Below are positions 638 through 25,472 of a stretch of DNA of 25,516 bases, piece after piece. The stretch comes from a virus. The position numbers and the translations under genes are program-made. The stretch lies in IMG/VR virus record IMGVR_UViG_3300042566_000237, positions 1 to 25,516 of that record. One strand, given 5' to 3'. Every line of letters begins with the position of its first letter. Position 1 is the first letter of the stretch. The notes under the pieces were generated by a model. That model ran no database searches, was not told the DNA's origin, and saw nothing but the letters and a program-made list of their open reading frames with translations.

Positions 638-2412
638 CACTGGCCTCCGATCATCTGGTTGAAGCGCGCCATAATCGCCGCCTTCCGCCGCTCCTTCTCA
701 GAGGATGGCAGGTTCGACGCGTCGATCTGCGCGATAGCCGCGTCGGCTTCCTGACGGAGCCGCACGCGGTCATTCTCGACCGGAGGCGGCGGGACGGTGC
801 CAGCACCGCCCGGCTGGGCTGACACGGCGTCAGCCGCAGGGTTGCCACCCATGATGATGCTCTGGATACCGTCGATGGTCATGCCCCTACGACGAGCTTC
901 AACCGCCATCGCCATCTTCTGGCGCTTAACAGCGACGGTCTGTTCGTCGTCACCATAGCGCGGGATCAAAGCCGCGATGTATTTCGGGTATTCGCTGATC
1001 GGAACCGCCGCGCCGCTTTCGTCGCGGAGGATGGCGTTCAGGAACGTCATCATGTTGGCTTCAAATTGCTGCCCGGCGGGATCGACGGTGCCGCGTGCCT
1101 TCGCCGCGCCCAACTGGATGGCAAAGTCCATGATACCGTCTTGTTCAGACGCCGAGTTGGCGAGCCGCGACAGCATGGAACCGCTGAAAGTGGGCTGATA
1201 CCCGCCGTTCAGCATTTCAATCATCTGCTGGAGGCTCTGATCCATGACTTGGAGGTACTGGCCCTTTTTGACAAGATGCTCGGCGGGCATCTCGGGCGTA
1301 CCCTGCCTGATGCGCCGCACAGCGGTGCCGCTGCCGTCCACCACCATGACAGGCTGGCCGGGCTGCGCCTGCGGCGAGGGCACCCATCCGGCCTGCGGGC
1401 CGCGCGGTCCCGTGGGCACCGGCCCTTGCGCGGGGGGCGGCGACACCGGCTGACCCGCGCCCGGAGGCGTGAAACCGCCCGGCGTGGCCGGATACACAGT
1501 CACGTCGTCAAGCGCGCCGCCCGGCCCCGAACGCACCTCGCGCTTCGGGCCGTAGAGTGTGTTCCACGCCCACTGGGCTTGCGCTTCGACTTCTGGCGGA
1601 ACGGGCTGGTTGCTGCGCACCATGTTCTGATAGTTGAACAGGATGTTGGCGGCCTGCGCTTCGATAGCGTTGCCCTGCAACGGGCCAGTGGTCGTGCCAG
1701 TGGTCGTGCCAGCAGCATTCGGGTCAGCCGGTGGCCGCACGATAAACTGCCCGTTCGCATCTGCTGGCACGTTCATGACACGCGCCTGATCCGGTGTCAG
1801 GAGAGTGCCGTTTTCGTTGATCGGGATAGCCTCTTTCAACTTGGCCGCTTCGGTTTCAGCCACGTTGAGCCGTCGCTGGTCTTCGGTCAGTGCGACCTTG
1901 GCGTCGGGGATTTGGCCCGTGAGCATCGTCTGCGTAGTGCGAGCGTCGAGTTCGTTGGTCGGCACGCCCCCGGCGTACACGTTCCCCATGCCGAGCGAAG
2001 CGTAGGCCGCGCTGAGAGCATCGTTCGGATTGCCACCGCGCATGATGGCATTCGTCGCGGCGGCCCGCGCGAAAGCGAGCTTCTTGTCGAGATTGTCGTC
2101 AGCCGGGTTGTCCATGCCGGGCATTGGCCCCGAAAAACTGGGGGTTGGACGCGGCGTTTCGATCTCAGCCGGAATGTTGAAGTTCCCCGGCTGGAATGTC
2201 GAATTGATCTGACCGATAAGTCCCTGCTGGGCGCTCTGCTGGGCGCGCATGTTCTGCAACTCAAGCTGCTTCTGAGCGTTCTCAGCTTGCATGCCCGCGA
2301 TACGCTGCTTGTAGGCGTAGGCTTCCCACTGCGACTTGGGATCGCTCATGAGGGCACCGCCCAGCGCCCCGAGCGCCTGACCGATACTGTCGTCTCGAAT
2401 GACCGTCGGCAT
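637..2412 (-). CDS. Internal virion protein (591 aa), ejection-complex candidate
   Basis: The start is the ATG at 2412 (MPTVIRDDS), with AAGG 7 bases upstream and only two bases after the stop of the previous gene. Residues 1-70 are helical and Gln/Ala-rich, as in phage ejection proteins. The middle (about 210-370) is a Pro/Gly/Thr-rich, probably disordered linker that includes a Thr/Gly repeat from a 12-bp DNA duplication. The C-terminal third has a pattern I recognise from podovirus internal proteins: a block around LGAAKARGTVDP, then LRDESGAAVPISEYPKYIA and a basic helix. By order (after the gp13- and gp14-type genes) it occupies the place of T7 gp15. Homology to T7 itself cannot be claimed from the sequence. 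It is translationally coupled to the next gene by TGATG. Confidence 0.82.
   Translation of the reverse strand: MPTVIRDDSIGQALGALGGALMSDPKSQWEAYAYKQRIAGMQAENAQKQLELQNMRAQQSAQQGLIGQINSTFQPGNFNIPAEIETPRPTPSFSGPMPGMDNPADDNLDKKLAFARAAATNAIMRGGNPNDALSAAYASLGMGNVYAGGVPTNELDARTTQTMLTGQIPDAKVALTEDQRRLNVAETEAAKLKEAIPINENGTLLTPDQARVMNVPADANGQFIVRPPADPNAAGTTTGTTTGPLQGNAIEAQAANILFNYQNMVRSNQPVPPEVEAQAQWAWNTLYGPKREVRSGPGGALDDVTVYPATPGGFTPPGAGQPVSPPPAQGPVPTGPRGPQAGWVPSPQAQPGQPVMVVDGSGTAVRRIRQGTPEMPAEHLVKKGQYLQVMDQSLQQMIEMLNGGYQPTFSGSMLSRLANSASEQDGIMDFAIQLGAAKARGTVDPAGQQFEANMMTFLNAILRDESGAAVPISEYPKYIAALIPRYGDDEQTVAVKRQKMAMAVEARRRGMTIDGIQSIIMGGNPAADAVSAQPGGAGTVPPPPVENDRVRLRQEADAAIAQIDASNLPSSEKERRKAAIMARFNQMIGGQ
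1685..1712. repeat. 12-bp direct repeat inside the 591-aa gene
   Basis: Two adjacent copies of CCAGTGGTCGTG (1685-1696 and 1697-1708) plus a partial third encode the Gly-Thr-Thr-Thr repeat in the disordered linker. This looks like slippage-type expansion in a region tolerant of length change. Confidence 0.8.
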
Positions 2413-2414
2413 GT

Positions 2415-3092
2415 CTACACCTTCCCGCCCATATGGTTGCCCCACGCCTTGCCAGCTATGCCAGCCAGAGCGTTTCCGACGCCACTGGCGTAGTCCGTAA
2501 CGGGAGCCAACTGCATGGGCTGTACGTTCTGTGCGATCTGATACTGAGCGAGATTGCCCCGGCGCATGTTGTTTGCCAGATCGATGCCCTGCCCGCTTTC
2601 AGCAAAGATTTCGCTGTTACGCGCCGCGAGGCCATTGAAGCTGCCGCCATAGGAGTTGATGTCGGCCAGAGCTTTGATGCGGGCGCGGGCCTCCTGCGCG
2701 GCGGTCGTCAGTCGCTTGGCAACGTCAGTCTGGAACTCTTCGCCACCATCCTGCTGACCCGACAAAAGCGCCGCGTTGACGCTGGCCTTGTTCACGTCAG
2801 TGGCACCGCCATCGTAGTAGTCGGATAGACGCGCGCTTTCGGTTGTCTGGGCTTCTTTCTGCTGTTCAGCGCCGAGCTTTTCGAGAGAACCGTTACGGGC
2901 GGCGTCAGCCTGACGGCGAAGCTCCTCGTCCTTCTGCTGCGCCGCAAGCCGCTGCTGTTCCTGCCACCTGCGCCACTGTTCGTTGGCCGCATTCTGGTCC
3001 TGAATGGCTTGGTTCTGCTGATACATGCCATAGCCGGACGCGGCGAGCGACCCGACGGTGGCGACGGCTGCAAGAGAGAGCGGATCACACAT
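2415..3092 (-). CDS. Internal virion protein (225 aa), T7 gp14-like in position
   Basis: The start is the ATG at 3092 (MCDPLSLAAV), with GAGG 6 bases upstream. The MCDP plus small-residue/hydrophobic start (residues 1-25, Ala/Gly/Ser-rich, possibly membrane-active) is a recurrent signature of podovirus internal virion proteins. Residues 26-90 are a long Gln/Glu/Arg-rich amphipathic, coiled-coil-like helix. The rest is helical with a Gly/Ala-rich tail (about 202-215). It sits between two other ejection-type genes in one transcription unit, with gaps of 8 and 2 bases. In T7 the equivalent protein is ejected and inserts into the outer membrane; that role is an inference from order and composition. 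The exact family is not assigned. Confidence 0.85.
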   Translation of the reverse strand: MCDPLSLAAVATVGSLAASGYGMYQQNQAIQDQNAANEQWRRWQEQQRLAAQQKDEELRRQADAARNGSLEKLGAEQQKEAQTTESARLSDYYDGGATDVNKASVNAALLSGQQDGGEEFQTDVAKRLTTAAQEARARIKALADINSYGGSFNGLAARNSEIFAESGQGIDLANNMRRGNLAQYQIAQNVQPMQLAPVTDYASGVGNALAGIAGKAWGNHMGGKV

Positions 3093-3100
3093 AGTTCACC

Positions 3101-4144: not shown

Positions 4145-4622
4145 TTTCGGGCCTCCAAACGTAAAGACTAAAATCCTCACGCTGGCGGCCGAACCCAGCT
4201 AGTACGGCCTCAAGTTCCATGCCGAGGCTCGGGAGCCACTTGGCGGTGTCAGCACGCTCCGTGAGAGCGGCGCACTCGGCCCGGTGATACCCACCTTCGA
4301 CAAGCGACGGGACTATAACCCGCCGCACGGTCTTTGTCATCGATTTTACGGCTTCCGGCCACCTTTCCGTGCCGAACGCCCAGACAGTTGCCACGCCCTT
4401 CCGAAGCATGTGGTAGCCCATGACGGAGATGGGCTCCCCGTCATCCGAAAAATGGGTGAAGGACATCCCCGGACGGTCTGCCGCCCACAGGAGTTCCCAG
4501 ACAAGGCGGTCCTCGTCGTCGTCGTCCCGCGTGGCAAAAATCTCCTTCCGGTCGATCTCGCGCATGTTCTGCACGATGTACCGGGAAGGCTCCGCACCGA
4601 TACCATTTACCCGGAAGCTCAC
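4119..4622 (-). CDS. Acetyltransferase-fold internal protein, T7 gp13-like (DUF2833-type)
   Basis: The reading frame extends upstream of 4622, but that part overlaps the tail nozzle gene. The likely start is the GTG at 4622, which overlaps the nozzle TGA (GTGA) and gives 167 residues (SFRVNGIGAEPSR...). No strong SD is present, so translation probably depends on coupling. The sequence has the layout of the DUF2833 / T7 gp13 family, which has a GNAT-like fold: an early NMREIDRKEIFA segment, a central GEPISVMGYHML strand pair, GVATVWAFGTERW, and a late WLPSLGMELEA segment. This family is found in podovirus genomes immediately before the ejection proteins, which is exactly the position here. I do not see a convincing acetyl-CoA loop, so catalysis is doubtful. 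The C-terminus overlaps the next gene by 26 bases. Confidence 0.78.
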   Translation of the reverse strand: MSFRVNGIGAEPSRYIVQNMREIDRKEIFATRDDDDEDRLVWELLWAADRPGMSFTHFSDDGEPISVMGYHMLRKGVATVWAFGTERWPEAVKSMTKTVRRVIVPSLVEGGYHRAECAALTERADTAKWLPSLGMELEAVLAGFGRQREDFSLYVWRPENVFRRRQQ

Positions 4623-6016
4623 GTTGTCACCGTTTCCGTATAGTGGATCATCAGGTTGCTCAGCGTACACTCTCCCGGCACCTGCGAACGCATCCGAACA
4701 GAAATGTGGGTGGAATGCCCCATCATGGCAAACTGGCCCGTCAGGAAGGTTGGCCCGGTGGTTGTACCCAAGAGGTCTTCGGCGGCAGTCTGGTGCGGGT
4801 TCAACCCAGCGTAAATAGCCCACGTACCCGTGGCAGAAAGGTCTACGCCATTGAACTGCTTGAACGTGGCTGGCTTCTGGAAACTCAGGTACGGCAGAAT
4901 GACCTCGACGGCGCAGCTATCGTAGATCGGCGCGCCCGGCCCGTTTCCATATCGGTAGATTTGGCCGGTCGAAGAACGGAGATACAGGAAAGCCCCGGCA
5001 GTCACGGCATCCACGATCTCAAAACCGGGCTCATAGACGCACCACGCCGAGATTTCAGGGCTGGGGTAGTTCGACAGAACCAAAACGCCCGTCTTCGTGA
5101 TAACCCAGTAGCGTCCGGTCAGCGGTTCCAGAAGGGAGATGGTCTTGCGCAGCGCGGAGGTGCCCGCAGCCATGAGGTCACGGACATAGGGGTCAACCGG
5201 AGAGCCGATGTCTGACACGGAGGCCGTGATGGACTGCATGCGGGCCTTGAGCGACCGGATACCATCTGGGGCCAGATAGAGCACGTCGCCGGAACCATAC
5301 TGGCGCACGCTGCGGGGAGCGTAAGTGCCAGCCTGACGGAGGGTCTGTATGTGCTGGCTCTTGTTCGGGTCAGGATCGATGAACCAAATCTGGCACGCCC
5401 GCTCGGAGAACACGGCCAGTTTGTCATAGTAGACCTCAATACCGACCAACGTGGACATTTCACTGTCTTCGGTAGCAAGGTTGATGAAGCCCGCGCCATC
5501 CGCTGCGGTCGCCCAGTCGGTGGGATCGCCCACCGCAGAGAAATAGAGGTATGAACCCTCGACGGTGTAAATTTTGGACTTATAGGTACGGCAGGAGATG
5601 CCTTTGGCACCAGTCACCAACGCGCCGTCATAGAAGCGATAGACGTTGCCGTCAGTGCCTTGCGCGATCACGAAGAACTTGCCGTTATATGTATCCCAGT
5701 CCAGTATTTCTGAGATACCCACGCCAGCGGGCATAGCGACCGAATGGACGCCAAGACGCGTGGGCGACGGCGTTACAGGCGTGCCGTTGGGGACCACAAC
5801 ATAGAGGTTATCGCCCATCGAATTTCCCAGCGACATCAAGCCTTGGGAGCCAGCCGGGGCGGTGAACGCATCCACAAACGCTTGCCGCTTTTCAATCTCA
5901 CCGCCCGGCGTCACGTGCGCATTCTTGAGCATGCGCAGCGTGCCAGCCGGGGCCGTGAGGGGTGACTTCCTCACGTCCATACCTGCGGCGAAGTTATCGA
6001 CTGAGTAGTACGGCAT
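4619..6016 (-). CDS. Tail nozzle / tail tubular protein B-like (465 aa)
   Basis: The ATG at 6016 opens MPYYSVDNFAAGMDVRKSP. That N-terminus, followed by LKNAHVTPGGEIEKRQAF, is characteristic of the podovirus nozzle and tail-stabilisation proteins, which begin by describing a per-feature offset strand and then form a beta-propeller. Repeated beta segments (YLYFSAVGDPTDW, DKLAVFSERACQIWF, DVLYLAPDGIRSL, GRYWVITKTG) fit a propeller. The length of 465 aa is shorter than T7 gp12 (about 790 aa) and close to P22 gp10. The protein would close the end of the tail and hold the DNA in. It follows the adaptor by 3 bases. The SD is weak (GGA), and the GTGA overlap couples it to the gp13-like gene. Confidence 0.85.
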   Translation of the reverse strand: MPYYSVDNFAAGMDVRKSPLTAPAGTLRMLKNAHVTPGGEIEKRQAFVDAFTAPAGSQGLMSLGNSMGDNLYVVVPNGTPVTPSPTRLGVHSVAMPAGVGISEILDWDTYNGKFFVIAQGTDGNVYRFYDGALVTGAKGISCRTYKSKIYTVEGSYLYFSAVGDPTDWATAADGAGFINLATEDSEMSTLVGIEVYYDKLAVFSERACQIWFIDPDPNKSQHIQTLRQAGTYAPRSVRQYGSGDVLYLAPDGIRSLKARMQSITASVSDIGSPVDPYVRDLMAAGTSALRKTISLLEPLTGRYWVITKTGVLVLSNYPSPEISAWCVYEPGFEIVDAVTAGAFLYLRSSTGQIYRYGNGPGAPIYDSCAVEVILPYLSFQKPATFKQFNGVDLSATGTWAIYAGLNPHQTAAEDLLGTTTGPTFLTGQFAMMGHSTHISVRMRSQVPGECTLSNLMIHYTETVTT

Positions 6017-6019
6017 GCG

Positions 6020-6733: not shown

Positions 6734-6736
6734 GAG

Positions 6737-7102: not shown

Positions 7103-7121
7103 TTACTTCTCCATGAAGAGG

Positions 7122-7149
7122 AGACGGCGGGCAGTGTCGCCCGCCGTCT
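7122..7149 (-). terminator. GC-rich hairpin directly after the capsid gene
   Basis: An 11-bp perfect stem (7122-7132 with 7139-7149) around a 6-base loop lies 12 bases past the capsid stop. On the transcribed strand it is followed by TCCTCTTC rather than a true T-run, so it may be a partial terminator, or an mRNA 3'-end stabiliser that raises capsid expression over the downstream genes. Confidence 0.6.
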
Positions 7150-7160
7150 TTCGAGTTTCA

Positions 7161-8264
7161 CTACTTAATGTCGATGACGAGATGGCAGTTGGCCTGTGTC
7201 ATCACCATCTGGCCCGTGCTGGTGATCGAACGATACAGCACGAACTGGTTGGCCGGACGAGCCGGGGTGTGGTCCTTGCGCCACTCGTTCTCCATCGCCA
7301 TCAGGAACAGACGCTTGCTGTCGAACCAGTAGGCACGCTTGGAGAAGCCCATGTCGTCCAGCGTCGGATCGTACTGGATGGACTGGCCCGCAAAGGAGAG
7401 AGTGCCGACAGCGCCGTCGATGGACTTGTTGAAGCCCGTGTCAGAGTAGCCGCCGTTGGCACGGATTTCCTTTTCCATAGCGTCGAGGAACGCCGAGCCG
7501 CAGAGCATGGTGTCAGGCTGGCCGCCGTAGCGGATGAGCTGACGACGCTCATACTGTAGCACCTGCAACAGCGCGCCGCCATTCGTCGTGGCTGACGTTA
7601 CTGCGTCGCCGCCGTGTGCGGAAAGCGACGGGGTGGCCGTCACCTTGGCACCGAAGGCGGCAGTGCGGGCGCGGTTACGCCACCAGTTTACGTTCGCGCG
7701 GTCCAGACCGCCCGCAACGCCAACCGACGGATCGGCAGCAACGAGAAGCTGGATGCCAGCGAGGGCCTTCGGGTCGGCAGTTCCGTCGCCGTAAAGCAGG
7801 GTGTTCATGGAACGGGCATACTGCTCGCCAAGTTCACCGAGCTTGTCTTCAAGAAGCCCGACCAGCACCGTCATCTCGCGCTGCGAGTGGTTGCTGGTGC
7901 TTTCACCGTTGGTATCGACAACGGAGATGCCGTCGATCTTGAGTTCGGTGTGGGTCAGCGTCAGGCCGATGTGGTGCTCGCGCCACGGATAGTTCGCGCG
8001 CTTGATGTTGGCGGGCGTGAAGAAGTTCACGGTGTCATTGTGGGTGTAGCCCTTGATGACATCGTTGCCCGAGCCGTCGCCGTAGTTACCCTTGACGGCG
8101 AGGGAAATATTGCCCTTGCCACCGGGGAACGCCTTCTTCTTACGCTCCATCTTGTCGAGGAGCGGGCGGGCCTGAATGGTCTGGTTAAACAGGTCACCCT
8201 TGTTGAAGTAATAGTCCAACGCCGCGTTGGCGATGTTGGTGATTTCATTTGCGGTAAACGCCAT
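7161..8264 (-). CDS. Major capsid protein (367 aa)
   Basis: The ATG at 8264 has GAGG 8 bases upstream and lies 13 bases after the scaffold stop. The protein begins MAFTANEITNIANAALDYY and carries a segment FPGGKGNISLAVKGNYGDG. It continues with YPWREHHIGLTLTHTELK and a long central helix (VLVGLLEDKLGELGEQYAR), then beta and domain-A-like segments (RYGGQPDTMLCGSAFLDAM, FAGQSIQYDPTLDDMGFSK). The C-terminus is strand-rich (RPANQFVLYRSITSTGQMV). This is the arrangement of an HK97-fold capsid protein of the podovirus type. Placement after a scaffold gene and before the adaptor, and the hairpin after it, support the call. It is expected to be the most abundant virion protein. Confidence 0.92.
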   Translation of the reverse strand: MAFTANEITNIANAALDYYFNKGDLFNQTIQARPLLDKMERKKKAFPGGKGNISLAVKGNYGDGSGNDVIKGYTHNDTVNFFTPANIKRANYPWREHHIGLTLTHTELKIDGISVVDTNGESTSNHSQREMTVLVGLLEDKLGELGEQYARSMNTLLYGDGTADPKALAGIQLLVAADPSVGVAGGLDRANVNWWRNRARTAAFGAKVTATPSLSAHGGDAVTSATTNGGALLQVLQYERRQLIRYGGQPDTMLCGSAFLDAMEKEIRANGGYSDTGFNKSIDGAVGTLSFAGQSIQYDPTLDDMGFSKRAYWFDSKRLFLMAMENEWRKDHTPARPANQFVLYRSITSTGQMVMTQANCHLVIDIK

Positions 8265-8277: not shown

Positions 8278-9366
8278 TCAGGCAGATCGGCGCGAACGAG
8301 AAAGCCCAAGCATTGCTGCTTCCATCATGTTTTTGGGCTCTGCGGTCGCACCAGTTGAACGATGGATGCTTGAAGGAACGGGGGCTGTGGCCCGAGGCTT
8401 CGGTGCCATACGCGAGGTCAGTTCATTGGCCCGGCGGTAGGCTTCCTTGGCGATTTCGACCGCGTGCTGGGGGCTTTGTGGGGCACCCTGCTCACGGACG
8501 ACGGCCCACAGGATGTTCTTCACGGCATCCTGTTTGAGGCCATAGTCGGGGTCTGTCTGACGGACTTGGTTTTCCCAGTTCGACACCGCTCCAGCGATCT
8601 CGTTCTGCATCTCAGTGACCATGGCGCGCTGCTGCGCGCTCTCCACGGCGGCCTGAGTGCGATACGCGTTCGCTTCCGCCATCTGGCGGGCGTAGCGTTC
8701 CTGAGAGAATTGACGAGCGGCGTCGGTGGTCATGTGACCCTGCTGAACCCGCTGCGCGAGGTCTTGGGGTAGCCTGACACCGAGAGCTTCCTCGGCAACC
8801 TGAACGTAGGGCTTCACACCCGCATAGAAGGTCTGCCAATCACCACGACGCAGGGCCGCGCCAAGGTCGAGAAGAACGGCAAAGTCTTCCTTTTGGATGT
8901 CGTTCTGCTGGAGGTATTCGCGCACCCCCCTCCCCATGTCAGCCTCGCCACGAAGGGTTTGGACTTCCATCTGGAGTTCTTTGCGCTGATCCAGCAGCTT
9001 CCCGATGCGCTTGCGCGTGCGGGACGTGTACCTGCTCAACTCTTCCGGTGTGGGATCGTCGGGTAGGTCTTCCTGCCCATCCTGTCCGTCAGCCGTTTCC
9101 GGCTTTGGCTGTTCCGAAGTGAGCGGGTCTTCGGTTCCGGGGAGCTTGAGCTTGTCGGCGTCGTCAGGTGGTTTGACCACCTTCATTACCGCTTCAAGCA
9201 GGCTCTCCTTGGTTTCGCTCTCGGGTGCGCCCGACGCTGGCGCGGATGACGCGTCGTTTGTGGGGGTAGTGTCCGGGGTTTCCGGTGAAGCGACTGCCGC
9301 CTCGGTAGCCGGGGCTACCGGGGAGATTGTTTCGCTGACAGACGGCGAACTGTCGTTAAGGTCCAT
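8278..9366 (-). CDS. Scaffolding protein (362 aa)
   Basis: I chose the ATG at 9366 (MDLNDSSPSVSETIS) because GGAGG lies 4 bases upstream and the upstream extension falls in repeat-rich intergenic DNA. Residues 1-110 are acidic, Ser/Thr/Pro/Ala-rich and disordered. Residues about 110-160 form a basic coiled coil (YTSRTRKRIGKLLDQRKELQ). Further helices rich in Gln/Ala/Arg follow (YARQMAEANAYRTQAAVES), and the C-terminus is basic (SSIHRSTGATAEPKNM and LGLSRSRRSA). An acidic disordered N-terminus, coiled coils and a basic C-terminal helix, located between portal and capsid, are the hallmarks of a phage scaffold. The basic C-terminus would contact the capsid shell. Confidence 0.87.
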   Translation of the reverse strand: MDLNDSSPSVSETISPVAPATEAAVASPETPDTTPTNDASSAPASGAPESETKESLLEAVMKVVKPPDDADKLKLPGTEDPLTSEQPKPETADGQDGQEDLPDDPTPEELSRYTSRTRKRIGKLLDQRKELQMEVQTLRGEADMGRGVREYLQQNDIQKEDFAVLLDLGAALRRGDWQTFYAGVKPYVQVAEEALGVRLPQDLAQRVQQGHMTTDAARQFSQERYARQMAEANAYRTQAAVESAQQRAMVTEMQNEIAGAVSNWENQVRQTDPDYGLKQDAVKNILWAVVREQGAPQSPQHAVEIAKEAYRRANELTSRMAPKPRATAPVPSSIHRSTGATAEPKNMMEAAMLGLSRSRRSA

Positions 9367-9402: not shown

Positions 9403-9486
9403 TTTGTGTCTGACACAAAAGCTGACACGTCGCAACGTGTCAGCTTTTGGTGTCAGGTGTCAGGCGTGTCAGGTTTTTGGTGTCAG
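9403..9486. repeat. Iteron-like array of seven GTGTCAG heptamers between portal and scaffold
   Basis: On the plus strand GTGTCAG occurs at 9437, 9450, 9457, 9466 and 9480. Its complement CTGACAC occurs at 9410 and 9422. This packs seven copies into 77 bp of a 135-bp intergenic region. Spacings between the direct copies are 13, 7, 9 and 14 bases. The two inverted copies form the terminator-like hairpin at 9417-9448, and a further near-perfect palindrome (TTTGTGTC-T-GACACAAA) lies at 9403-9419. Such an array would suit a DNA-binding protein operator, but no binding protein can be named from the window. Confidence 0.85.
9417..9448. terminator. Bidirectional terminator-like hairpin between portal and scaffold
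   Basis: A perfect 13-bp stem (9417-9429 with 9436-9448) surrounds the 6-base loop TCGCAA. The stem has four A at one end and four T at the other, so on either strand a hairpin is followed by TTTT. It would separate the portal message from the scaffold/capsid message, partly or conditionally. The stem contains two inverted copies of the repeated heptamer. Confidence 0.72.
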
Positions 9487-9501: not shown

Positions 9502-11769
9502 TCAATTCATGGAGCCGCCGGGGGGAGGCGAGCCAGCCAGCATCCCGACCTGATCCGGGGCGGGCGATCCGCCCCGTCCGGGTGTCGCAGGTGCATTCTG
9601 CGCACCAGCCGGGCCAGCCGCTTGACCCGGCCCCATGCCTGACCCCGGAGCCATTGGCCCCCGCATGGCGTTCATGAGGGTGATGCTGGGGATATTCGGC
9701 TTGAAGGCGCTTTGGAGGTCCAGCTTGTCGTCCAGACGGCGCAGGAGTTCCTTGGCGATAAACTCCGGGTCAATGCCCGGAATTTGGAAAAGGAGCGGAG
9801 CCACGCGTTCGATGTTGGCGATCTCCTGCGCCTGATTTGGCCGCCCGGTCGAACCCGCTTCGATCTCCAGCCAGACCTCTTCCGCGATGTCCTGTTTGGA
9901 AAGTTCCGGCCAGACTGCGCCGGGTCCGACAATCTTCTTGGCGGTTTCGGTGCTCACCTCGCGGAGGAGGATTTGACCGCCCGCGCGGGCAAGCTGTGTC
10001 AGGAGGTCGTCAAGGTCATCGATGTTGGAGCCCATCGAAGTCTGGCGCGAGGCTTCCGCGATCTGGCTTTCTGTGGCGGTGCCGTTGGAGGTGCCGCCCA
10101 TGTTCGCTTCCTGTACGCCCGTCGTGCGCTGCACGTCGGAGTACACCTCGTTGACCTCGTACAGGTTCGGGTCGATCCCCGGCCCGGAAAAGGGCTGGAG
10201 AACGCTCTTGATGTCCTGCTGGGGCTGGAGGCCGTTCAGTTCCAGAACGGCGTTGGCCGGATGATTTTGTAGCTTGGCGATGTCACCGTCATCCAACATA
10301 CCAGACGCAACGGCAGTGAAAGGCCGCGCCGCAATGCGGTGCTCCCGCAGCCCTTCGCGGGCGCGGTTGTATTCAAGCTGCATGTCGCGCATCAGGCGAA
10401 CGTCGGACGGCGGGAAGATTTCATCCTCGTGCTCGCACTCGTTGAAGGCGATGGCGAACCATGGATAGAAGCGTTCGATGTAGACCTCGGGGCTGGCGGG
10501 CTCGCGGAGGAAGTCCGGGTATCCGTCGCACACGTGGTAAACGAGCCCGTCACGTCGGGAGTAGATTTCCCAGATGAGGCAGTCGCCCTTCTTGCTCTCA
10601 CGACGGCTGTTCGCGTCGCCCCCGGCCATAATGGCCTGTAGGGACGCCTCACCACTGCCCTTGGGCTTGGTGTAGGCGGTGAAATTCTTCCCAACATCCA
10701 CGCCGTAGATTTCCTGCACCTGATCGGGTGTCAGAATGAACTCTTGGGCTACCCAGTCAGCGCCCAGAAACTCCCTGAGATGGATGCACTTGGGGTCAGG
10801 GATGATGCTGGTCGAGCCCGGATAGTCGAAAACCAGACCTTCACGGGAAACAAACTCCACCTGCGTCGAAAGGTCTTTCACAAGGAGACGAAGCTGTTCG
10901 GCCTCGGCGCTGAACTGATCGAACTCGCCGTCAGCCATGTCAGCCGAAAGCCGCTCCAGTGTGGAGAGCTTTTCGCTGGCGTCAGCAATGCGCGCTTCGA
11001 TCTCCGGGCGCTTCTCCATGACGCGCTGGAAGCCCAGCTTCACATAACCCACGCCCGTCGTGATGACACGCCGCACCATCAGCTTCATCATCTGCTTGAA
11101 CGGGTGTGTTTGCTCGGAGATGTTGTAGGAATAGAGCAGTTCCAGCGTTTTGCCGACAGCATCCATCTGCTTGTTGTAGGCGAAGACGTTATTCATGTCT
11201 TCGATGACCGCCGACGCTTGCTGCGCCGCAGCCATGACCTCCGGTGTCATGGGCATACCCATGCCGCCCGCGCCGGGCATCCACATACCCATGCCGCCCG
11301 CGCCGGGCACCCCCATACCCATGCCGCCCATCGCCATCTGTGCGGCTTCCATCATCTGGTTGATCTGGCCCTGCGTGCCATCCCAGACGGTGTTCATCAG
11401 GCGCTCACGGCGACGCGCAACAGCCTTCGGGTTCTTAGCGTAAAGGAACGCCGTCTTCTGCGCCACCATACGGAGGGCAATGTTGGCCGTGTACCGCTTC
11501 TCGTCAGCGTCAGCCGACCACTGGCGGCCCAGCGCAAAGTCCATGTCTTCGCGCATCCGTCGGAAAGACGGCTCCCAGTGGCTCTTCGCCTGTTTCACGT
11601 CGTCGGCCCACTGGGTCACGAGCGCCTTGCGGGCCTCGTCCACCTCGGGAGTGTCGCGCTGCACCACCTTGCCGTCCGTCGCGGAGGCTGGCGACAACGA
11701 CATCATAGGGGCATCCGCCATGGCGGGGTCCATTCCCGTATCCATGCCAGTGATCGGGTCAATAGGCAT
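9502..11769 (-). CDS. Portal protein (755 aa)
   Basis: The ATG at 11769 (MPIDPITGMD) has GGAGG 6 bases upstream and shares its A with the terminase TGA (TGATG). The ATG at 11775 is too close to the SD. After a Met/Pro-rich lead, residues about 45-120 carry the helical start DEARKALVTQWADDVKQ, the EDMDFALGRQWSADADEKR segment and ALRMVAQKTAFLYAKNP, which are typical of long podovirus portals. Core segments follow: FKQMMKLMVRRVITTGVGY, FDYPGSTSIIPDPKC and WVAQEFILTPDQVQEIYG. Later come the wing/stem helices (DMQLEYNRAREGLREH) and a barrel-like helical C-terminus, then a Gly/Pro/Ala tail. It would form the dodecameric DNA channel contacted by TerL and the tail adaptor. A Met/Gly-rich insertion lies near residues 146-174. 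Confidence 0.9.
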   Translation of the reverse strand: MPIDPITGMDTGMDPAMADAPMMSLSPASATDGKVVQRDTPEVDEARKALVTQWADDVKQAKSHWEPSFRRMREDMDFALGRQWSADADEKRYTANIALRMVAQKTAFLYAKNPKAVARRRERLMNTVWDGTQGQINQMMEAAQMAMGGMGMGVPGAGGMGMWMPGAGGMGMPMTPEVMAAAQQASAVIEDMNNVFAYNKQMDAVGKTLELLYSYNISEQTHPFKQMMKLMVRRVITTGVGYVKLGFQRVMEKRPEIEARIADASEKLSTLERLSADMADGEFDQFSAEAEQLRLLVKDLSTQVEFVSREGLVFDYPGSTSIIPDPKCIHLREFLGADWVAQEFILTPDQVQEIYGVDVGKNFTAYTKPKGSGEASLQAIMAGGDANSRRESKKGDCLIWEIYSRRDGLVYHVCDGYPDFLREPASPEVYIERFYPWFAIAFNECEHEDEIFPPSDVRLMRDMQLEYNRAREGLREHRIAARPFTAVASGMLDDGDIAKLQNHPANAVLELNGLQPQQDIKSVLQPFSGPGIDPNLYEVNEVYSDVQRTTGVQEANMGGTSNGTATESQIAEASRQTSMGSNIDDLDDLLTQLARAGGQILLREVSTETAKKIVGPGAVWPELSKQDIAEEVWLEIEAGSTGRPNQAQEIANIERVAPLLFQIPGIDPEFIAKELLRRLDDKLDLQSAFKPNIPSITLMNAMRGPMAPGSGMGPGQAAGPAGAQNAPATPGRGGSPAPDQVGMLAGSPPPGGSMN
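11254..11328. repeat. 30-bp tandem repeat inside the portal gene
   Basis: Three copies (the third truncated) start at 11254, 11284 and 11314 with a strict 30-base period. They encode repeats of GGMGM with PGAG spacers, near portal residues 146-174. The first two copies are identical over about 26 bases. The insertion lies between two predicted helices and is likely surface-exposed. Confidence 0.9.
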
Positions 11770-13331: not shown

Positions 13332-14749
13332 AGTTGGGGCTCCTGTTCGTCACGCTCGAAAAGACCAGAGAACCAGCCGGGGGCGACGTTGCCCGCCAGC
13401 GTGTCAGCCGCATCTGCCTTGCGCGGATCGAATTTGGCGTTCACCGACCGAATAGCGGGCGCATATGGCATTGCGATGGTTTTGCCGTTTTTCCAGTGCG
13501 CAGTTTCATCCGCCACACGTGAACCCGTGAACCCAAGCCCAAGTTGCCCGGTCTGGAAGAAGCTGGGTGCGCCGCCTTGGCCGCCAACGCTCTTCACAGC
13601 GCCATGTTCGTAGAGGCCATAGCCGGGAACGCCCGGCTGGGTCTTGCCACCCGGCACGGGAATGAAATCATCCGGCCCAAGCATCCCGCCACCCATTTCG
13701 GGGGCGTAGTACATGCGCGCGATGTGCTTGGCGAGGCTTTCGTCTGTCTGTTCGATCTGCGACTTGATCCAATGGCGGTCTTGCGGTTGCGCCGCAGCAA
13801 GGCGCGCCTCGACGGCCTCTTCCCGGTAAGGCCCGTTGCGGATGCCCGCCATGAGGTCTTGGATCGACTGGGGTGTGGCAAACGCATCCGGGGCGCTGCT
13901 GGCAAACTTGAGGGTGTCAGGCAGTGCGGCGAGGGCTTCCTCGGGAATTGCGTGCTCGCCCATGATCGGTGCGCGCAGGAGAAACGGGAAGACATACGCG
14001 CCGTCGCCGCCACCTGCACCCACCGCTGCGCCGGAACGGACAATGCTCGACGGCATGTCGCCAAAATATACCGCGCCGCGTCCGGCGCGGTTCGGGTCGG
14101 GTGTCAGGAACGGAACGGAACCATCCTTGAGGGGTTTCTCGCCCGCCCGATAACCTGACACGTGGAACATCGGCGTGTCATACCCAAGCTCAGCAGCGCG
14201 CTCCACGACGCCCATGGCGTTTTTCGATGGTGGCAACGAGAGCTTTGTGAGGGCGTTGTCGGCCTTGTCCAAAGCGCCTTCGCCGCCGAGTTTGTAGCCC
14301 ATGGGAGCGCGCTTGCGCATGGCCTCGACGTGCTGGGCCAAATACTCCGCAGCCGTAGGGTCCATGTTAAGGAGTTCGCTCGGTCGGGACTTGATGATCG
14401 GACCCGCACCCAGCACTGTCTCTCCAACCGCAGCGCGCACCGGGGCCGCAACGCCGCCCATGGCATTGCCGAACAGGTCCATGAGGCTCGCAAGCTGCGG
14501 CCTGTCCACCCATTCGATTGGCTGGCCGTCAGGCGTGAACCATTGGCCGCTGTCGTCCACGGTTTCGCCCTGCTGGGGTGAGTACGCGTATCCGTCCATA
14601 AGACCCGGACGGAGCCGCTGATTTGGTCCGAGGAACGTCTCTGGAGCCAATTCATACTGGCCGAACGTCTTTGCAAAATCGAAGGCGTTCGACAGAATGT
14701 CAGGAAGGCCGCCACTACCAGACGGGGGATTGGGGCGCGGTGCTGGCAT
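13328..14749 (-). CDS. Putative ADP-ribosyltransferase-like phage protein (473 aa)
   Basis: The ATG at 14749 directly follows the holin stop, and the 3' end overlaps the terminase start. The N-terminal 120 residues are Pro/Gly-rich (YSPQQGETVDDSGQWF) with a hydrophobic/Ala segment ending in a GAGP turn. The region 184-262 resembles the ART core seen in phage polyvalent proteins: AAELGYDTPMFHVSG (H196 at the place of the usual YHGT histidine), AVYFGDMPSSIV (Y228) and AYVFPFLLRAPI. Near the C-terminus, AIRSVNAKFDPRKADAADTL closely matches the RSrfAaFDP-type end of those domains. The third catalytic residue cannot be placed by eye, and the intervening 265-425 is longer than usual. It could modify host or phage proteins, or be a virion protein with a degenerate fold. 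Coding status is firm; function is tentative. Confidence 0.6.
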   Translation of the reverse strand: MPAPRPNPPSGSGGLPDILSNAFDFAKTFGQYELAPETFLGPNQRLRPGLMDGYAYSPQQGETVDDSGQWFTPDGQPIEWVDRPQLASLMDLFGNAMGGVAAPVRAAVGETVLGAGPIIKSRPSELLNMDPTAAEYLAQHVEAMRKRAPMGYKLGGEGALDKADNALTKLSLPPSKNAMGVVERAAELGYDTPMFHVSGYRAGEKPLKDGSVPFLTPDPNRAGRGAVYFGDMPSSIVRSGAAVGAGGGDGAYVFPFLLRAPIMGEHAIPEEALAALPDTLKFASSAPDAFATPQSIQDLMAGIRNGPYREEAVEARLAAAQPQDRHWIKSQIEQTDESLAKHIARMYYAPEMGGGMLGPDDFIPVPGGKTQPGVPGYGLYEHGAVKSVGGQGGAPSFFQTGQLGLGFTGSRVADETAHWKNGKTIAMPYAPAIRSVNAKFDPRKADAADTLAGNVAPGWFSGLFERDEQEPQL

Positions 14750-18315: not shown

Positions 18316-18807
18316 TTAGGCGCTCCTCTTGAGTGGGTAGAACCAAGTTGTTTTTCCTGTGGGCAACGTCACACGAACGCGGCCCTTTGCTGTCTCCGAA
18401 AGACGCGAGCGCATGGCAGCGGTCTTCTCCCGCCCCTTCTGCTTTGCGGAAATAGCTGCGCTCCGCGCACGGCGTTCCTCGGGTGTGGCGGCAGTCCAGC
18501 CGTTCGTGCGCGGATGGCGGTTACGACCGTGCATGTCCCGTGCGTTCGAGGTAGGATCGCCCGCGTAGTGATGGTCTGGGTTACAGCAGCGAGGGTTATC
18601 GCAGCGGTGACAGACGATCTTGCCTTCCGGCACAGGTCCGTGAACGCTTTCAAACGCCCACACATGAGCGCCACGAGTTTTACCGCCGCGTGTGATCCAC
18701 CCGTAGCCCGTGCTATTCACGGGACCAAGCCATTCAACGCACCCAGTATCCGGGTCTTTCTTGGTTCTCGACCAAAGCTGTTCTTCAATAGTTTTGACAT
18801 ATGTCAT
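18316..18807 (-). CDS. Free-standing HNH homing-type endonuclease (163 aa)
   Basis: The ATG at 18807 has GAGG 6 bases upstream. The core shows PDTGCVEWLG, GAHVWAFESVHGPVPEG, then CHRCDNPRCCNPDHHYAGD (residues 66-84) and TSNARDM. These give the HNH zinc and catalytic His/Asn positions of the phage/intron-associated HNH family. The basic helical region 108-143 (TPEERRARSAAISAKQKG) resembles NUMOD-like DNA-binding repeats. The C-terminus ends in LPTGKTTWFYP. It sits exactly between two fibre genes and reads in the same direction, as is usual for free-standing homing endonucleases. It is a relative, not a copy, of the HNH protein at 24315-24797. Confidence 0.9.
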   Translation of the reverse strand: MTYVKTIEEQLWSRTKKDPDTGCVEWLGPVNSTGYGWITRGGKTRGAHVWAFESVHGPVPEGKIVCHRCDNPRCCNPDHHYAGDPTSNARDMHGRNRHPRTNGWTAATPEERRARSAAISAKQKGREKTAAMRSRLSETAKGRVRVTLPTGKTTWFYPLKRSA

Positions 18808-19865: not shown

Positions 19866-19883
19866 AGTCAGTTACTCCTGTTT

Positions 19884-20174: not shown

Positions 20175-20587
20175 GCCCTCGGAGCGATAGTGAAATTGAT
20201 AGTTTTGAGTTCTTTGCCGGGGATGCTCGACAAGTCTTGGAGGGAGCAGTCGAGATTGCCGTAACCGTTCGCGGCGAAGGTCTTGGTGAACGAGCGGCCC
20301 ACATAGCCATTACGCGGCATCTGTGTGCAGCGGAACATATATACTTCGTTGGGATCGCCAGCGGGCCAGCCGTCCAGAACCGTGAACTTGACTTCGTAGT
20401 TCGGCAGATACTCGACCTCAACGTCGTAGAGGTAAGGCGGGGCTGACACCGCTGCGGTCCACACTTGCTTCCAAGCGCCGCCTACAAGCGTGTGAACCTT
20501 CTGGGGGGTCTTCCAGACGCCATTTACGAGGACGCCTTTCGGAGTTGCCGCCTTCCATGCGTTCGCGTTGAGGACTTTGATCGTCAT
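20171..20587 (-). CDS. Small virion-type protein of the fibre module (138 aa)
   Basis: I chose the ATG at 20587 (MTIKVLNANAWKAATPKG) because it lies one base after the previous stop; the upstream extension is a shadow of the 576-aa gene. The first 45 residues include GVWKTPQKVHTLVGGAWKQVW, a short Trp-centred repeat found in phage virion proteins. The remainder is beta-rich (YDVEVEYLPNYEVKFTVLDG) and may form a small immunoglobulin- or fibronectin-like domain. Function is unknown; a fibre tip or decoration role would fit the context. Confidence 0.72.
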   Translation of the reverse strand: MTIKVLNANAWKAATPKGVLVNGVWKTPQKVHTLVGGAWKQVWTAAVSAPPYLYDVEVEYLPNYEVKFTVLDGWPAGDPNEVYMFRCTQMPRNGYVGRSFTKTFAANGYGNLDCSLQDLSSIPGKELKTINFTIAPRA

Positions 20588-20588
20588 C

Positions 20589-22319: not shown

Positions 22320-24223
22320 CCGAAGACCCCGCAATCGTGATTGTGCTGCGGGACCGGCCCCTTCGCGTTCGGGATACCCACGACTGCCCACGCCTGTGCG
22401 CTGGACAGCGGAGCTTCCGAGAAGGTGATGTCGGTGCCGCTGATGGTGAAATCGATGCCCGGATTGAGCATCACGCCGTCGAGGGACGTGAACACGCCCG
22501 CCTCGGAAGGCGGCGAATATAAGCTACCCGCGACGTAGATCGGGAAGGTCTTGCTGATACCGTTGAAAATCCAACGCTCTGTTTCGATCTTCTCGGCGGT
22601 CGTCGGGACGATCTGGACGCCGCCCAGTTTCGCCACCTCGAAAACTTCGATGATGACCGAAGTCCCTACGCTGACACCGCGAATGAGGACGATCTCAACG
22701 TCAGACGCGATACGGTACTCGTCTTCCTCAATCCGCACGCCATTTACGTGTACGATGGTGTTGGCGGTCGGGGCCAGAAGCCCCATGAGGGTATTCCCAA
22801 ACTTGTCAGTGCCGCCGAACGCCGCCTGCCCCTGCACTGAGGCGGAATACGTGAACCGCGTGAAGGTGCTGGGGCTGGGATAGAGAACCCGTATTTCCTC
22901 GGGGCCGAGGGGCATACCCAACAGACCCCACGAACGGGCGTCCTTCTGGGGCGCAAAGTCGAACGTGATGAAAGTTCCTGACACCGTGAAGTCGATGCCG
23001 GGGTCGTGCATGACGCCATCGATGCTGATGAGGACGTTCGCCGCGTTCGTCGGCGCGTAGAGCGCGCCCTGCACGTAAATCGGGAAGGTGCGGGTTTCGC
23101 CGTCGAAGGTCCACATCGACGTGTCGATCTTGCCCGCTGTCGCGGCGTAGATCGTCTGCGGAATATCAAGTCTTTCGACGGTGACAACGCTGTTGTTGGC
23201 GGGGGCGCGGGTCAGCCGGATGTGGGTGCTGTCTGCGACGTGCCAGTCATACGTCTCAAGGAGCCTGACACCGTTGAGGTAGACATTCACATTGGCGTTG
23301 CGGTTCGTCAGGTCTTGCGGCGTGCGACCGAAAATATCGACGCCGCCGAAGAGCGTCTGGCTGTCGGCGCTGAGATACTGGAACTCCTGCAAGTCGCCGG
23401 TCGTCGGAATAGCGGCCCGCTGCCACTCGTCGCCGGTCCAGACATACATCGCCTCTTCGGCGGTATTCCAGTACATCGTGCCGGGAACAAGCGGATCGCC
23501 GTGGGGGCATTCGACTGGCGGTGCGCTGTAGGCACCGAGGAAGAACCGGCAGAGGTCTTTGATCTCTTCCCGAACGATCTCGCCCGCGCGATGCGCCCAC
23601 CACCGAGACGACCAATGGTCGCCCGTGATGCCCATGACCTCCAAGATGTTCGGCGGGATCGTGTCAGGCATATACTCGGCCCAGTGGGCCGAAAGCACCG
23701 CGTAGTCCTGCGCCTGATTGCGGGCGTAGATCGCGTCATTCGCGTAATTGAACGTGTCGAATGCCTTGTCCTCGACCCGCCGTTCTACCTGTTCGGCAGC
23801 TCCAGCCGCGCGAGCAATGATCTCCAGTGCGCTTCCGGCACCGCCCGTGATCTCATTCGTAGCCAGCTTGGCTTGTTCAGCGGCCTCGGAGGCTGCTTGG
23901 GCCGAAGACGCCGCGCGGTCTGCCGCGATGCGCGCCTCGACGGCCCCGCTGCTGATCGCCGCAACGTCCTGCGCGACATCCTTGCGGATGTCCTTCGTCA
24001 GGTCATCGATAAGACTGGGGTCGAGGGTGTCCTTGGTAACAAGGCCGTTCTTGAGTTGGCCGTCGTCGCGCCGAATGTCTTGCAGGGCTTCCTGCGTTTC
24101 GGTGATGGCCTGACGGTGTTCGCTGAATTGGGCGTCAATGCGATCCCCCGGAAGGGGCACCCCCGGTTGGTTCACGGCATGCGATGTAAAGGAATATACC
24201 TGATCGGGCTTCTTCATCGTCAT
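22316..24223 (-). CDS. Tail fibre / virion-anchoring fibre protein with a tandem module duplication (635 aa)
   Basis: I chose the ATG at 24223 because the sequence then opens MTMKKPDQVYSFTSHAVNQP, the usual start of this fibre type. The frame could begin at 24268; neither start has a good SD. Residues to about 60 (PLPGDRIDAQFSEHRQAI, then IRRDDGQLKNG) match the N-terminal anchor of many podovirus fibres. Then a helical, Ala-rich coiled coil runs to about 180. WNTAEEAMYVWTGDEWQRA follows. Two related modules lie at about 291-440 and 468-618: both contain LFGG/AFGG-x-D-x-FG, VNGVR or LNGVR, TFPIYV, LY(A/S)P, DGVM and PGIDFT(V/I)SGT. It probably joins the other fibres to the tail. Confidence 0.87.
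   Translation of the reverse strand: MTMKKPDQVYSFTSHAVNQPGVPLPGDRIDAQFSEHRQAITETQEALQDIRRDDGQLKNGLVTKDTLDPSLIDDLTKDIRKDVAQDVAAISSGAVEARIAADRAASSAQAASEAAEQAKLATNEITGGAGSALEIIARAAGAAEQVERRVEDKAFDTFNYANDAIYARNQAQDYAVLSAHWAEYMPDTIPPNILEVMGITGDHWSSRWWAHRAGEIVREEIKDLCRFFLGAYSAPPVECPHGDPLVPGTMYWNTAEEAMYVWTGDEWQRAAIPTTGDLQEFQYLSADSQTLFGGVDIFGRTPQDLTNRNANVNVYLNGVRLLETYDWHVADSTHIRLTRAPANNSVVTVERLDIPQTIYAATAGKIDTSMWTFDGETRTFPIYVQGALYAPTNAANVLISIDGVMHDPGIDFTVSGTFITFDFAPQKDARSWGLLGMPLGPEEIRVLYPSPSTFTRFTYSASVQGQAAFGGTDKFGNTLMGLLAPTANTIVHVNGVRIEEDEYRIASDVEIVLIRGVSVGTSVIIEVFEVAKLGGVQIVPTTAEKIETERWIFNGISKTFPIYVAGSLYSPPSEAGVFTSLDGVMLNPGIDFTISGTDITFSEAPLSSAQAWAVVGIPNAKGPVPQHNHDCGVFG
22370..23353. repeat. Tandem duplicated module within the 635-aa fibre gene
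   Basis: Two protein modules of about 150 residues (encoded by roughly 23353-22904 and 22822-22370) share motif order and many identical residues, but the DNA has diverged. This indicates an old duplication that lengthened the fibre. Confidence 0.75.
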
Positions 24224-24314
24224 GTTGCTTGCGTTGACTGTGGCCCTTGCCGATGGGGCAGCGAACATGACGGCAACGCGATTTGTAGCTCAAAGTTGGC
24301 TGCGTGGCAAGACG

Positions 24315-24797
24315 CTATCGACCAAAACGCGGCCCAACGGCGGCAAAGCGGGCTAGTAGCTTCTTGCGGCGCTCCGCAGCGGCGAGATCGGGCGGGCCGC
24401 GCCGAGAAGCACTAATCTTGGCCTTTGTTTCGGCGCTATGCTTGTATCCCTTGGGCCGACCGCGCTTATTTTTTGCGATCCGGCCCCGTCGAACCATATC
24501 CATGGCGTTTGTCTTGGCGTCGCCCACGTACAGGTGGGCTGGGTTTACGCAGCGCGGGTTGTCGCAGTGGTGGCACGCCATCTGGTTCGGGCCGACAGGT
24601 CGCCCGTCAAGCTCCAAGGCGAAGCGGCTGGCGCGGATGGCCTTGCCGCGCTCTGCGATGAAAACGACCGGATAGTGTTTGGCGTCCGGTTTGCCCCACT
24701 GGGCGATGTAGTTCCAGCAGCCAGTATCGGGATCGACGGTATACCGGGTGTGAAATCTGGCAACCGGGTCGGTGCGGGGGCGGGTCTTGCGTGGCAT
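24315..24797 (-). CDS. Free-standing HNH homing-type endonuclease (160 aa)
   Basis: The ATG at 24797 (MPRKTRPRTD) is preferred over a GTG at 24830; neither has a clear SD, so translation may be weak. The core has VDPDTGCWNYIA, ASRFALELDGRPVGP, then CHHCDNPRCVNPAHLYVGD (residues 75-93) and KTNAMDM, the HNH active-site and zinc-binding layout. The C-terminus is very basic (RIAKNKRGRPKGYKHS, then ETKAKISASRRG), like the NUMOD3-type DNA-binding helices of homing enzymes. It lies between the GC-rich intergenic block and the first fibre gene. It shares the core but not the flanks with the HNH protein at 18316-18807. Confidence 0.88.
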   Translation of the reverse strand: MPRKTRPRTDPVARFHTRYTVDPDTGCWNYIAQWGKPDAKHYPVVFIAERGKAIRASRFALELDGRPVGPNQMACHHCDNPRCVNPAHLYVGDAKTNAMDMVRRGRIAKNKRGRPKGYKHSAETKAKISASRRGPPDLAAAERRKKLLARFAAVGPRFGR

Positions 24798-24855
24798 GCC
24801 GTTAATGTAGGGCGAGTTAAACCGACACACAACAAAATTTCAAAAGTTGGGGAAA

Positions 24856-24867
24856 CCAAAATTTTGG
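24856..24867. promoter_or_regulatory. Perfect AT-core palindrome
   Basis: CCAAAATTTTGG is a perfect 12-bp palindrome in an AT-rich patch beside the GC-rich array. A half-related sequence (CAAAATTTC) occurs at 24833-24841. It may be a protein-binding site, but this is inferred from symmetry only. Confidence 0.45.
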
Positions 24868-24916
24868 AGACGCCCCTGCCCAGCGCGCGTTCCGCGTCGC
24901 GCGCCGTGCGCCGGGG

Positions 24917-25025
24917 GGCGGGTGCGCGGGCGCGGGCACCCGCCTGCCCGCGATACGCGGGCACGCGCACGCGGGGCAGCGCGCGTGACGCGCACGCCCA
25001 CGTGACGCGCACCCCCACGGGTGCG
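24917..25025. repeat. Array of four GC-rich hairpins with direct repeats
   Basis: Perfect stems lie at 24917-24944 (9 bp, 10-base loop), 24945-24963 (8 bp, loop ATA), 24962-24987 (7 bp, 12-base loop) and 25008-25025 (7 bp, 4-base loop). CGTGACGCGCAC is repeated at 24984-24995 and 25001-25012. The first two hairpins abut exactly. No T-run follows any of them. Confidence 0.8.
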
Positions 25026-25066
25026 GGGCAGCGCATGCGCACGTAATACACCCATACGCGAGGACG

Positions 25067-25083
25067 CTACCTAGGGCAGGTAG
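25067..25083. promoter_or_regulatory. Inverted repeat after the small terminase-like gene
   Basis: CTACCT-AGGGC-AGGTAG is a 6-bp inverted repeat with a 5-base loop. It may be an operator or a weak hairpin downstream of the TerS-like gene. Confidence 0.35.
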
Positions 25084-25115
25084 TGGACACCGTGTCAGAT
25101 CAATAGGTTAGAGCC

Positions 25116-25472
25116 CTATCTCTGGACTGAACCGCCGGACAAGGCCCGGATTTCTGCGTCAATCTCTGCCAAGCTCATTTCTGACACGGGCCTCGTGTCG
25201 GTGTCAGCACCCGCCCCGCCGAGCACGCCGAGATAGTCCAAAATCGTGCGGGCGGCGCTGGCTTTTGCCGCGCCACTCTCGCCCGGATCGGCGCAAATTT
25301 GGGCCAGCGCGCCAAGGGCCACCGCTAGTAAATCGCCCGGTGTTTGTTTCGCCTCCGAAACGACCGAGCCATTGGGAAGCCCGCTGGCGGCTGACACGTC
25401 GTCCGGGCTACCTGACACCGCCCGACCTGCCCGACCGCCTTCCTTGGCCTTCCTAGGGCCTTGGCGGGGCAT
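25116..25472 (-). CDS. Putative terminase small subunit-like protein (118 aa)
   Basis: I used the ATG at 25472 (MPRQGPRKAKEGG); a GTG at 25490 is an alternative, and neither has an ideal SD. The N-terminal 40 residues are basic and Gly/Ser-rich. A helical core follows (GDLLAVALGALAQICADP, then GAAKASAARTILDYLG). The C-terminus ends in VSEMSLAEIDAEIRAL. A helix in which a repeated Ala pattern leads to a leucine-rich segment, and a short acidic C-terminal helix, resemble small phage terminase subunits and their relatives. I cannot see a definite helix-turn-helix. The gene is separated from TerL by about 12 kb. Alternative: another small DNA-binding or structural protein. Confidence 0.5.
   Translation of the reverse strand: MPRQGPRKAKEGGRAGRAVSGSPDDVSAASGLPNGSVVSEAKQTPGDLLAVALGALAQICADPGESGAAKASAARTILDYLGVLGGAGADTDTRPVSEMSLAEIDAEIRALSGGSVQR

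Follow-up and report, generated by a model that had tools for sequence, protein, structure and literature searches.

A selected heptamer dispersed through a phage genome fragment changes between related lineages and accompanies a CobS/CobT-like AAA+/VWA module

To our knowledge, phages are not generally known to hold tens of short, non-palindromic words throughout their genes and on both strands. The closest described systems are the stoperators of cluster A mycobacteriophages, which are oriented along transcription (PMC6550527, PMC9283540), the Chi sites and DNA-uptake sequences of host genomes, and the 8-nt site TTTGGTTA of the NrS-1 primase, which occurs twice in its genome (PMC7102993). 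This work concerns such a word, the heptamer GTGTCAG (CTGACAC on the opposite strand), in a 25,516-bp IMG/VR virus record (the window), which holds the late half of a phage with every gene on the minus strand. This heptamer is a selected phage motif, rather than a product of codon usage, and is very probably a phage-specific recognition site that has diversified between lineages. Its reader, or part of its reader, may be an AAA+/VWA module, a possibility that we place just short of even. The module is annotated as cobS-cobT, genes that are among the most widespread unexplained ones in phages and are usually taken for vitamin B12 genes.

The window contains 31 exact copies of GTGTCAG, 17 on the plus strand and 14 on the minus strand, compared with a mean of 3.36 and a maximum of 10 in dinucleotide shuffles, and three occurrences of the pattern read backwards. 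An earlier note, made from the letters of the window, had claimed about 30 copies at roughly ninefold excess, in both orientations and often inside genes. The observed enrichment is stronger than this, the 30 positions listed were correct to within two bases, and one further copy, at 12517, had been overlooked. The concern that common dicodons such as Ala-Asp-Thr generate the coding copies can be dismissed, as synonymous-codon shuffles left only 1.8 ± 1.2 copies in genes (maximum 5 over 200 shuffles), where 19 are observed. The other 12 copies lie in 1,613 bp of noncoding DNA, at 7.4 per kb, whereas genes contain 0.79 per kb. Nor were many other heptamers equally enriched, which the note had regarded as a second way for its claim to fall: in a scan of all 8,192 heptamers against codon shuffles, GTGTCAG alone reached a z of at least 8. 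Hence both of the tests that the note had set against its own claim came out in favour of GTGTCAG. A GC-rich genome and the constraint of codons on heptamers would favour an excess arising from codon usage, composition or chance; however, the synonymous shuffles and the all-heptamer scan rule out a codon or composition artefact, and together with the noncoding excess, and the conservation and in-place switching described below, they leave this explanation next to no probability. The flanks of the motif carry little information, ruling out an extended or palindromic consensus, such that the proposed G/C neighbours persist as a slight preference for G or C before the heptamer, and not as a longer site.

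Selection rather than codon usage is also indicated by the retention of most sites in close relatives with the same motif. Relative to a background of other coding heptamers in the alignment, coding sites were preferentially kept in the relatives sharing GTGTCAG, bearing out the conservation that the note had proposed to look for: nine of ten sites in L057 (background 40%), eight of 12 in L006 (25%) and six of ten in L004 (26%). The sister phage L007, with a capsid protein 84% identical, is enriched for GTGACAG, and kept none of eight coding sites; two copies of an intergenic array, at 9450 and 9466, have changed in place from GTGTCAG to GTGACAG in this genome. Because L007 has both lost the coding sites and rewritten the array copies, the sites seem, on this comparison of sequences, to follow a reader whose taste changed, and GTGTCAG evolves as if tracking a trans factor. 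Difference between close relatives and rewriting in place together mark a word as belonging to a strongly selected, sequence-specific system.

The same pattern extends across the family. Relatives were gathered by capsid protein and each genome was scanned for its top enriched heptamer, with each motif-bearing lineage proving to have its own. These were GTGTCAG in G001 (58 copies in 49 kb), GTGTCCG in G006 (75 copies), GTGTCTC/T in G004, GTGTCTG in G002, GTGCCTG in G003 (62 copies), GTGACAG in L007, TGGTCCC in G007-G009 (61-94 copies), GTTGTCC/TTGTCCC in G005 (TTGTCC core), GTCCCGG/GTCCTGG in G010, the weaker CGTCC[CT] in G015, and TGTCCTG (TGTCCT) in the Microcystis phage Mae-Yong1326-1 (89 copies), while TGTCTG was also among the variants. 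Nearly all stood clearly above codon shuffles, with G015 the weakest, and refined matrices gave cores of 6-8 bp, mostly around G-T-C. Motif type tracks the capsid tree, along which it also changes from one near relative to another; other capsid relatives have no such motif. Several further signals were judged not to be this motif: GTGCTGT in L071 is one-sided and near codon expectation; the palindrome CTCGAG in G017, a motif-free relative, is a different signal (67 copies against 20 expected); TTGTCT in T5S1 (86/40) is weak; and those of SSU5, cyanophage S-P4, ICP2 and RHEph10 are weak or different. A separate observation is that the motif-bearing phage G001 encodes a protein (G001:6356-7618, L141) with ParB N-terminal and MT-A70 methyltransferase domains, which could methylate a specific site; a cognate methyltransferase would be expected if the motif were of the restriction-modification or BREX type.

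The distribution of genes points to a candidate reader. An iterated hidden Markov model (HMM) comparison of 11 motif-bearing with eight motif-free near-complete genomes found a CobT-like protein in 11/11 of the former and 0/8 of the latter (Fisher P 1.3e-5, unweighted for kinship), and a CobS-like AAA+ ATPase in 10/11, with the contig of the 11th, G006, cut at that point, and 0/8. No other gene family separated the groups as cleanly, and across these 11 and eight genomes the repressor, integrase, primase, SNF2, RecB, SSB, PolA and RuvC families did not separate them. Motifs predicted from the presence of CobS alone were also found. Genomes reached via CobS alone include G026, carrying CTGTCTG, and G027, carrying GGACGTG, and the Roseobacter phage CRP-810, likewise reached via CobS, has 131 coding copies of CGTCTG against 52 ± 7; a Rhizobiales prophage, found via its capsid gene, has both the module and a motif. 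A CobS alignment yielded 48 viral loci, and the 36 with an AAA+/CobT or AAA+/DUF7192 pair were compared with controls: the de-clustered top heptamer reached a z of at least 9 in 14/36 paired loci and 3/57 controls (Mann-Whitney p 3e-9), with four of the 14 representing a different, palindromic motif (GTTTAAAC). This palindrome is strongly over-represented in the AAA+/CobT phages of loci L257-L260 (G035, 58 kb, and G036, 64 kb), with 117 copies of GTTTAAA in G036 against 10.5 expected, and may be an operator or promoter element. Many unrelated phages with AAA_5 and DUF7192 (L262-L290) show other enriched words, namely GCTAGCA, GATTATG, TTGCCAG, TGCTAAA, TTGCAAA and TCTAAAG, and hence the phenomenon may reach well beyond the family. 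The motif is denser than average upstream of cobS in eight of ten genomes, which is not used as proof, because no noncoding stretch is longer and the motif is enriched in noncoding DNA throughout. The long noncoding stretch itself, seen in G001, G005, G007, G008, G009, G015 and Mae-Yong1326-1 with 6-12 copies per kb, is possibly an origin or control region.

The module is of a recognisable class. Its ATPase combines AAA_5 and CbbQ_C domains with a poorly conserved N-terminal extension, and is MoxR-class; its partner has an invariant HExxH...N..ED..IE zincin-like N-terminal part and a C-terminal VWA domain. With an AAA_5 ATPase adjoining a VWA protein that has an N-terminal HExxH, the module matches the MoxR AAA+/metallopeptidase-vWA pairs. 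The proteins do not qualify as cobaltochelatases by the NCBIfam models, scoring 60-71 bits for PD_CobS (cut-off 559) and 0-17 bits for CobT (cut-off 759). The partner in G041-G043 is DUF7192, the C-terminal part of which aligns with the VWA domain. DUF7192 (PF23822) stands beside a CobS-like AAA_5 ATPase in three phages (L301:7337-8170, L303:1722-2600 and L306:9577-10407), and the alignment of its C-terminal half with the CobT-like VWA domain is a possible clue to the function of an unnamed family.

In the mechanism that we propose, GTGTCAG is very probably a recognition site that selection maintains across the genome, in genes and on either strand, and is the local form of a motif that differs from one phage lineage to the next. 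Its trans-acting reader would be encoded by the phage itself, outside the 25.5-kb fragment, and the best candidate would be the CobS-like (MoxR-class, AAA_5) AAA+ ATPase with its VWA partner, either a CobT-like zincin-VWA protein or DUF7192. The module would act on the DNA of its phage as a DNA-directed motor, possibly alongside the phage's archaeo-eukaryotic-type primase, with the reader being either the module or replication proteins working with it. The process served would be replication or recombination, a role preferred because cobST lies near replication genes in S-P4, SSU5, RHEph10 and ICP2. That widespread two-gene modules of the cobS-cobT type (MoxR-class AAA+ with VWA or DUF7192) use a lineage-specific, rapidly diversifying, genome-wide motif for self-recognition is a tentative proposition, a little less probable than the module being the reader.

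Several points weigh against the module as reader. Firstly, the 11/11 versus 0/8 contrast holds perhaps three to four independent events, because five of the motif-free genomes form a single clade, and the window itself contains no cobST within its 25.5 kb. Secondly, the distant cobST phages ICP2, SSU5 and RHEph10 and the T4-like cyanophage S-P4 have no such motif, and hence cobST alone is insufficient. Thirdly, no DNA-binding fold was found in the module, with the model of the CobS N-terminal part being poor (pLDDT 54) and without a match in the PDB. Fourthly, the distance between motifs tracks neither that of CobS nor that of CobT in partial Mantel tests, although such co-variation was uninformative for identifying the reader: the highest values came from the portal and stabilisation proteins, suggesting that the test mainly tracks phylogeny. 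Fifthly, G041, in which TGTCTGA occurs 53 times against 6.1 and the AAA+ gene is the only one of 15 families tested that is common with the family, was chosen after the fact for its motif, and is therefore an illustration rather than a test. Finally, other functions have been proposed: virion-assembly chaperones for the MoxR-vWA-metallopeptidase pairs of jumbo phages (PMC7824862), counter-invader defence for other MoxR-vWA systems (PMC12839542), and an aid to B12/cobalamin synthesis for phage CobST (PMC8651126). No DNA motif linked to MoxR-vWA or CobST pairs was found in the literature searched.

Other phage proteins could read the motif instead. If it were the template sequence at which an archaeo-eukaryotic primase (AEP)-helicase begins lagging-strand primers, copies would therefore be kept on both strands; the motif is strand-symmetric, and in G001 each strand has a site about every 1.6-2 kb. 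Related PrimPols (ORF904 and NrSPol) need 5'-GTG-3' (PMC8718748, PMC12205980), a trinucleotide with which the motifs of several lineages begin, but the TGGTCCC and TTGTCC lineages are without GTG. Similarly, several motif-bearing genomes encode primases with AEP-type domains, and the motif is weak or missing in ICP2, SSU5 and T5S1, the three cobST phages examined that have TOPRIM primases, yet the motif-free G013, G016 and N65 carry homologous AEP primases, G015 and G026 have no primase homologue by HMM, and G001 and G011 share GTGTCAG with primases only 34% identical. Gap statistics showed site spacing to be no more even than random placement in most genomes, such that the regularity of Okazaki start sites was not seen. 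Priming is an unlikely explanation. A phage-encoded counterpart of Chi, at which an SNF2 helicase, a RecB-family nuclease and SSB form a motif-controlled end-processing machine, is quite unlikely: the motif is short, sharp, strand-symmetric and intragenic, as Chi is, and SNF2 and RecB genes occur in 11/11 motif-bearing near-complete genomes, but also in 6/8 motif-free ones, while CRP-810 and G041 have motifs and no homologue of these genes at the HMM sensitivity used.

The earlier note had suggested that the motif could be bound by a phage protein of regulation, packaging or recombination. The general form of this idea is supported, as the motif is phage-specific, is conserved beyond what coding requires in the relatives sharing it, and evolves as though following a trans factor, whereas a repressor is not favoured. 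Immunity repressors that bind genome-wide to silence transcription, with variants defining immunity groups, would account for short, asymmetric sites that are dispersed and differ from one related temperate phage to another, as the L5/Bxb1 stoperators do (PMC6550527), and repressor distance correlates with motif distance (partial Mantel r 0.41, P 0.013). However, stoperators point along transcription, whereas the motif, once codons are corrected for, shows about equal sense and antisense enrichment in most genomes, whether in early or in late regions. Mae-Yong1326-1 and G005 lean to sense, and a raw antisense excess, which could have indicated polarity along the genome or transcription, mostly vanishes with this correction. 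The motif is not enriched in the 600 bp upstream of ten repressors (0-3 copies, against a mean of 1.2-2.5). Furthermore, G001, G004 and G006 have the motif with repressor and integrase homologues undetected, whereas N65, G012 and G017 have repressor and integrase without such a motif. The stoperator-like explanation is very unlikely.

A motif copied from the host is highly improbable. DNA-uptake sequences, host Chi sites and KOPS are likewise genome-wide, short and intragenic, and the earlier note had drawn the analogy with DNA uptake. This is unsupported in the family's one motif-bearing chromosomal prophage, which was found by a capsid search of bacterial genomes and lies in a Rhizobiales genome (C18:141-181 kb) with integrase, repressor, CobT-CobS, terminase and capsid genes. 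Its own motif, TGTCTACG, has 16/40 of the copies in the 4.2-Mb genome within C18:147607-179724, and TGTCT has 97 and 87 copies in the two 20-kb pieces that contain most of the prophage, compared with 5, 3 and 5 in three host pieces. A host-encoded reader (Chi, uptake or KOPS) is therefore unlikely, as judged from the single host examined, because copies cluster in the prophage and are scarce elsewhere in the host genome; the host of the window may differ. The 72% GC phage Mae-Yong1326-1 (L190, OP028995), assigned to Microcystis, has a chromosomal Rhizobiales prophage among its close relatives, and its publication lists a Devosia protein as the top CobS match; its true host may be an associated alphaproteobacterium.

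Within the window, the minus-strand genes include the terminase large subunit (11769-13331), portal (9502-11769) and major capsid protein (7161-8264), along with tail and fibre genes. Two HNH endonuclease genes (18316-18807 and 24315-24830), of the same PHROG families and in the late region, are possible homing elements. The exact matches outside the array run from 819-825 (minus strand) and 1794-1800 (plus), both conserved in L057, through 4246-4252 (plus; L057, L006, G011), 5212-5218 (minus; L057, L006), 7438-7444 (plus; L057, L001, L004, L006), 7510-7516 (plus; L057, L001, L004, L006, G011), 8774-8780 (minus; L057, L001), 9996-10002 (plus; L004, L006, G001) and 10728-10734 (plus; L057, L001, G011) to the copy missed at first, 12517-12523 (minus; L057, L001, L004, L006). 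Beyond these lie 13401-13407, 13914-13920, 14101-14107 and 23661-23667 on the plus strand, 14155-14161, 20443-20449, 22671-22677, 22978-22984 and 23265-23271 on the minus strand, and a right-end group at 25092-25098 (plus), 25181-25187 (minus), 25201-25207 (plus), 25391-25397 (minus) and 25412-25418 (minus).

Density peaks in the array, where seven copies (9410-9486) occupy the 135-bp gap from the portal gene to the next late gene. They lie at 9410-9416 (minus; GTGACAG in L004/L006/L003), 9422-9428 (minus), 9437-9443 (plus), 9450-9456 (plus; GTGACAG in L007), 9457-9463 (plus), 9466-9472 (plus; GTGACAG in L007) and 9480-9486 (plus), all seven being exact matches in the window. An array is present at the equivalent position in L004, L006, L057 and G011, and also in L007, with GTGACAG. 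Inverted copies form a long minus-strand hairpin in the RNA fold (9410-9456), with inner arms at 9417-9429 and 9436-9448, which include the copies at 9422 and 9437, and outer arms at 9450-9456 and 9410-9416. The folded 135-nt gap reaches -55.5 kcal/mol (z -6.87). The earlier note had taken inverted pairs to form a terminator; the hairpin is very strong, but the intrinsic terminator scan does not list it.

These results suggest a fast-changing tag by which phages mark or read their own DNA, perhaps serving self/non-self discrimination or replication priming. If so, whole phage genomes would be written in a tag of self that shifts with the specificity of its reader. The link to the motif would give cobS-cobT a DNA function, one that is directly testable because the motif predicts a substrate for each phage. 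Comparison with known systems sets this motif apart from each. Like the stoperators of L5 and Bxb1, with 20-30 dispersed asymmetric sites per phage genome, it has a consensus that differs between related phages; however, stoperators are 13 bp, lie along transcription, mostly between genes, and have the immunity repressor as their reader, whereas this motif is 6-8 bp, in both orientations, mostly intragenic, reaches ~90 sites at most and shows no enrichment at the repressor. The motif resembles Chi sites and DNA-uptake sequences in being short and over-represented through genes on both strands, but those belong to the host genome, whereas here, in one case, the motif is confined to the prophage. 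The PrimPol sites (5'-GTG-3' of ORF904 and NrSPol, TTTGGTTA of NrS-1) resemble the GTG-initial motifs of several lineages with AEP primases, although the 8-nt site of NrS-1 is found twice in its genome, as against dozens of 7-mers here, and primases of this type are also present in motif-free relatives. Finally, the module and the phage MoxR AAA+/metallopeptidase-vWA pairs alike combine a CobS-like AAA_5 ATPase with an adjoining CobT-like protein that has an N-terminal HExxH and a C-terminal VWA; the known pairs have been proposed as cobaltochelatases, virion-assembly chaperones or counter-invader systems, whereas a link to a DNA motif is proposed here.

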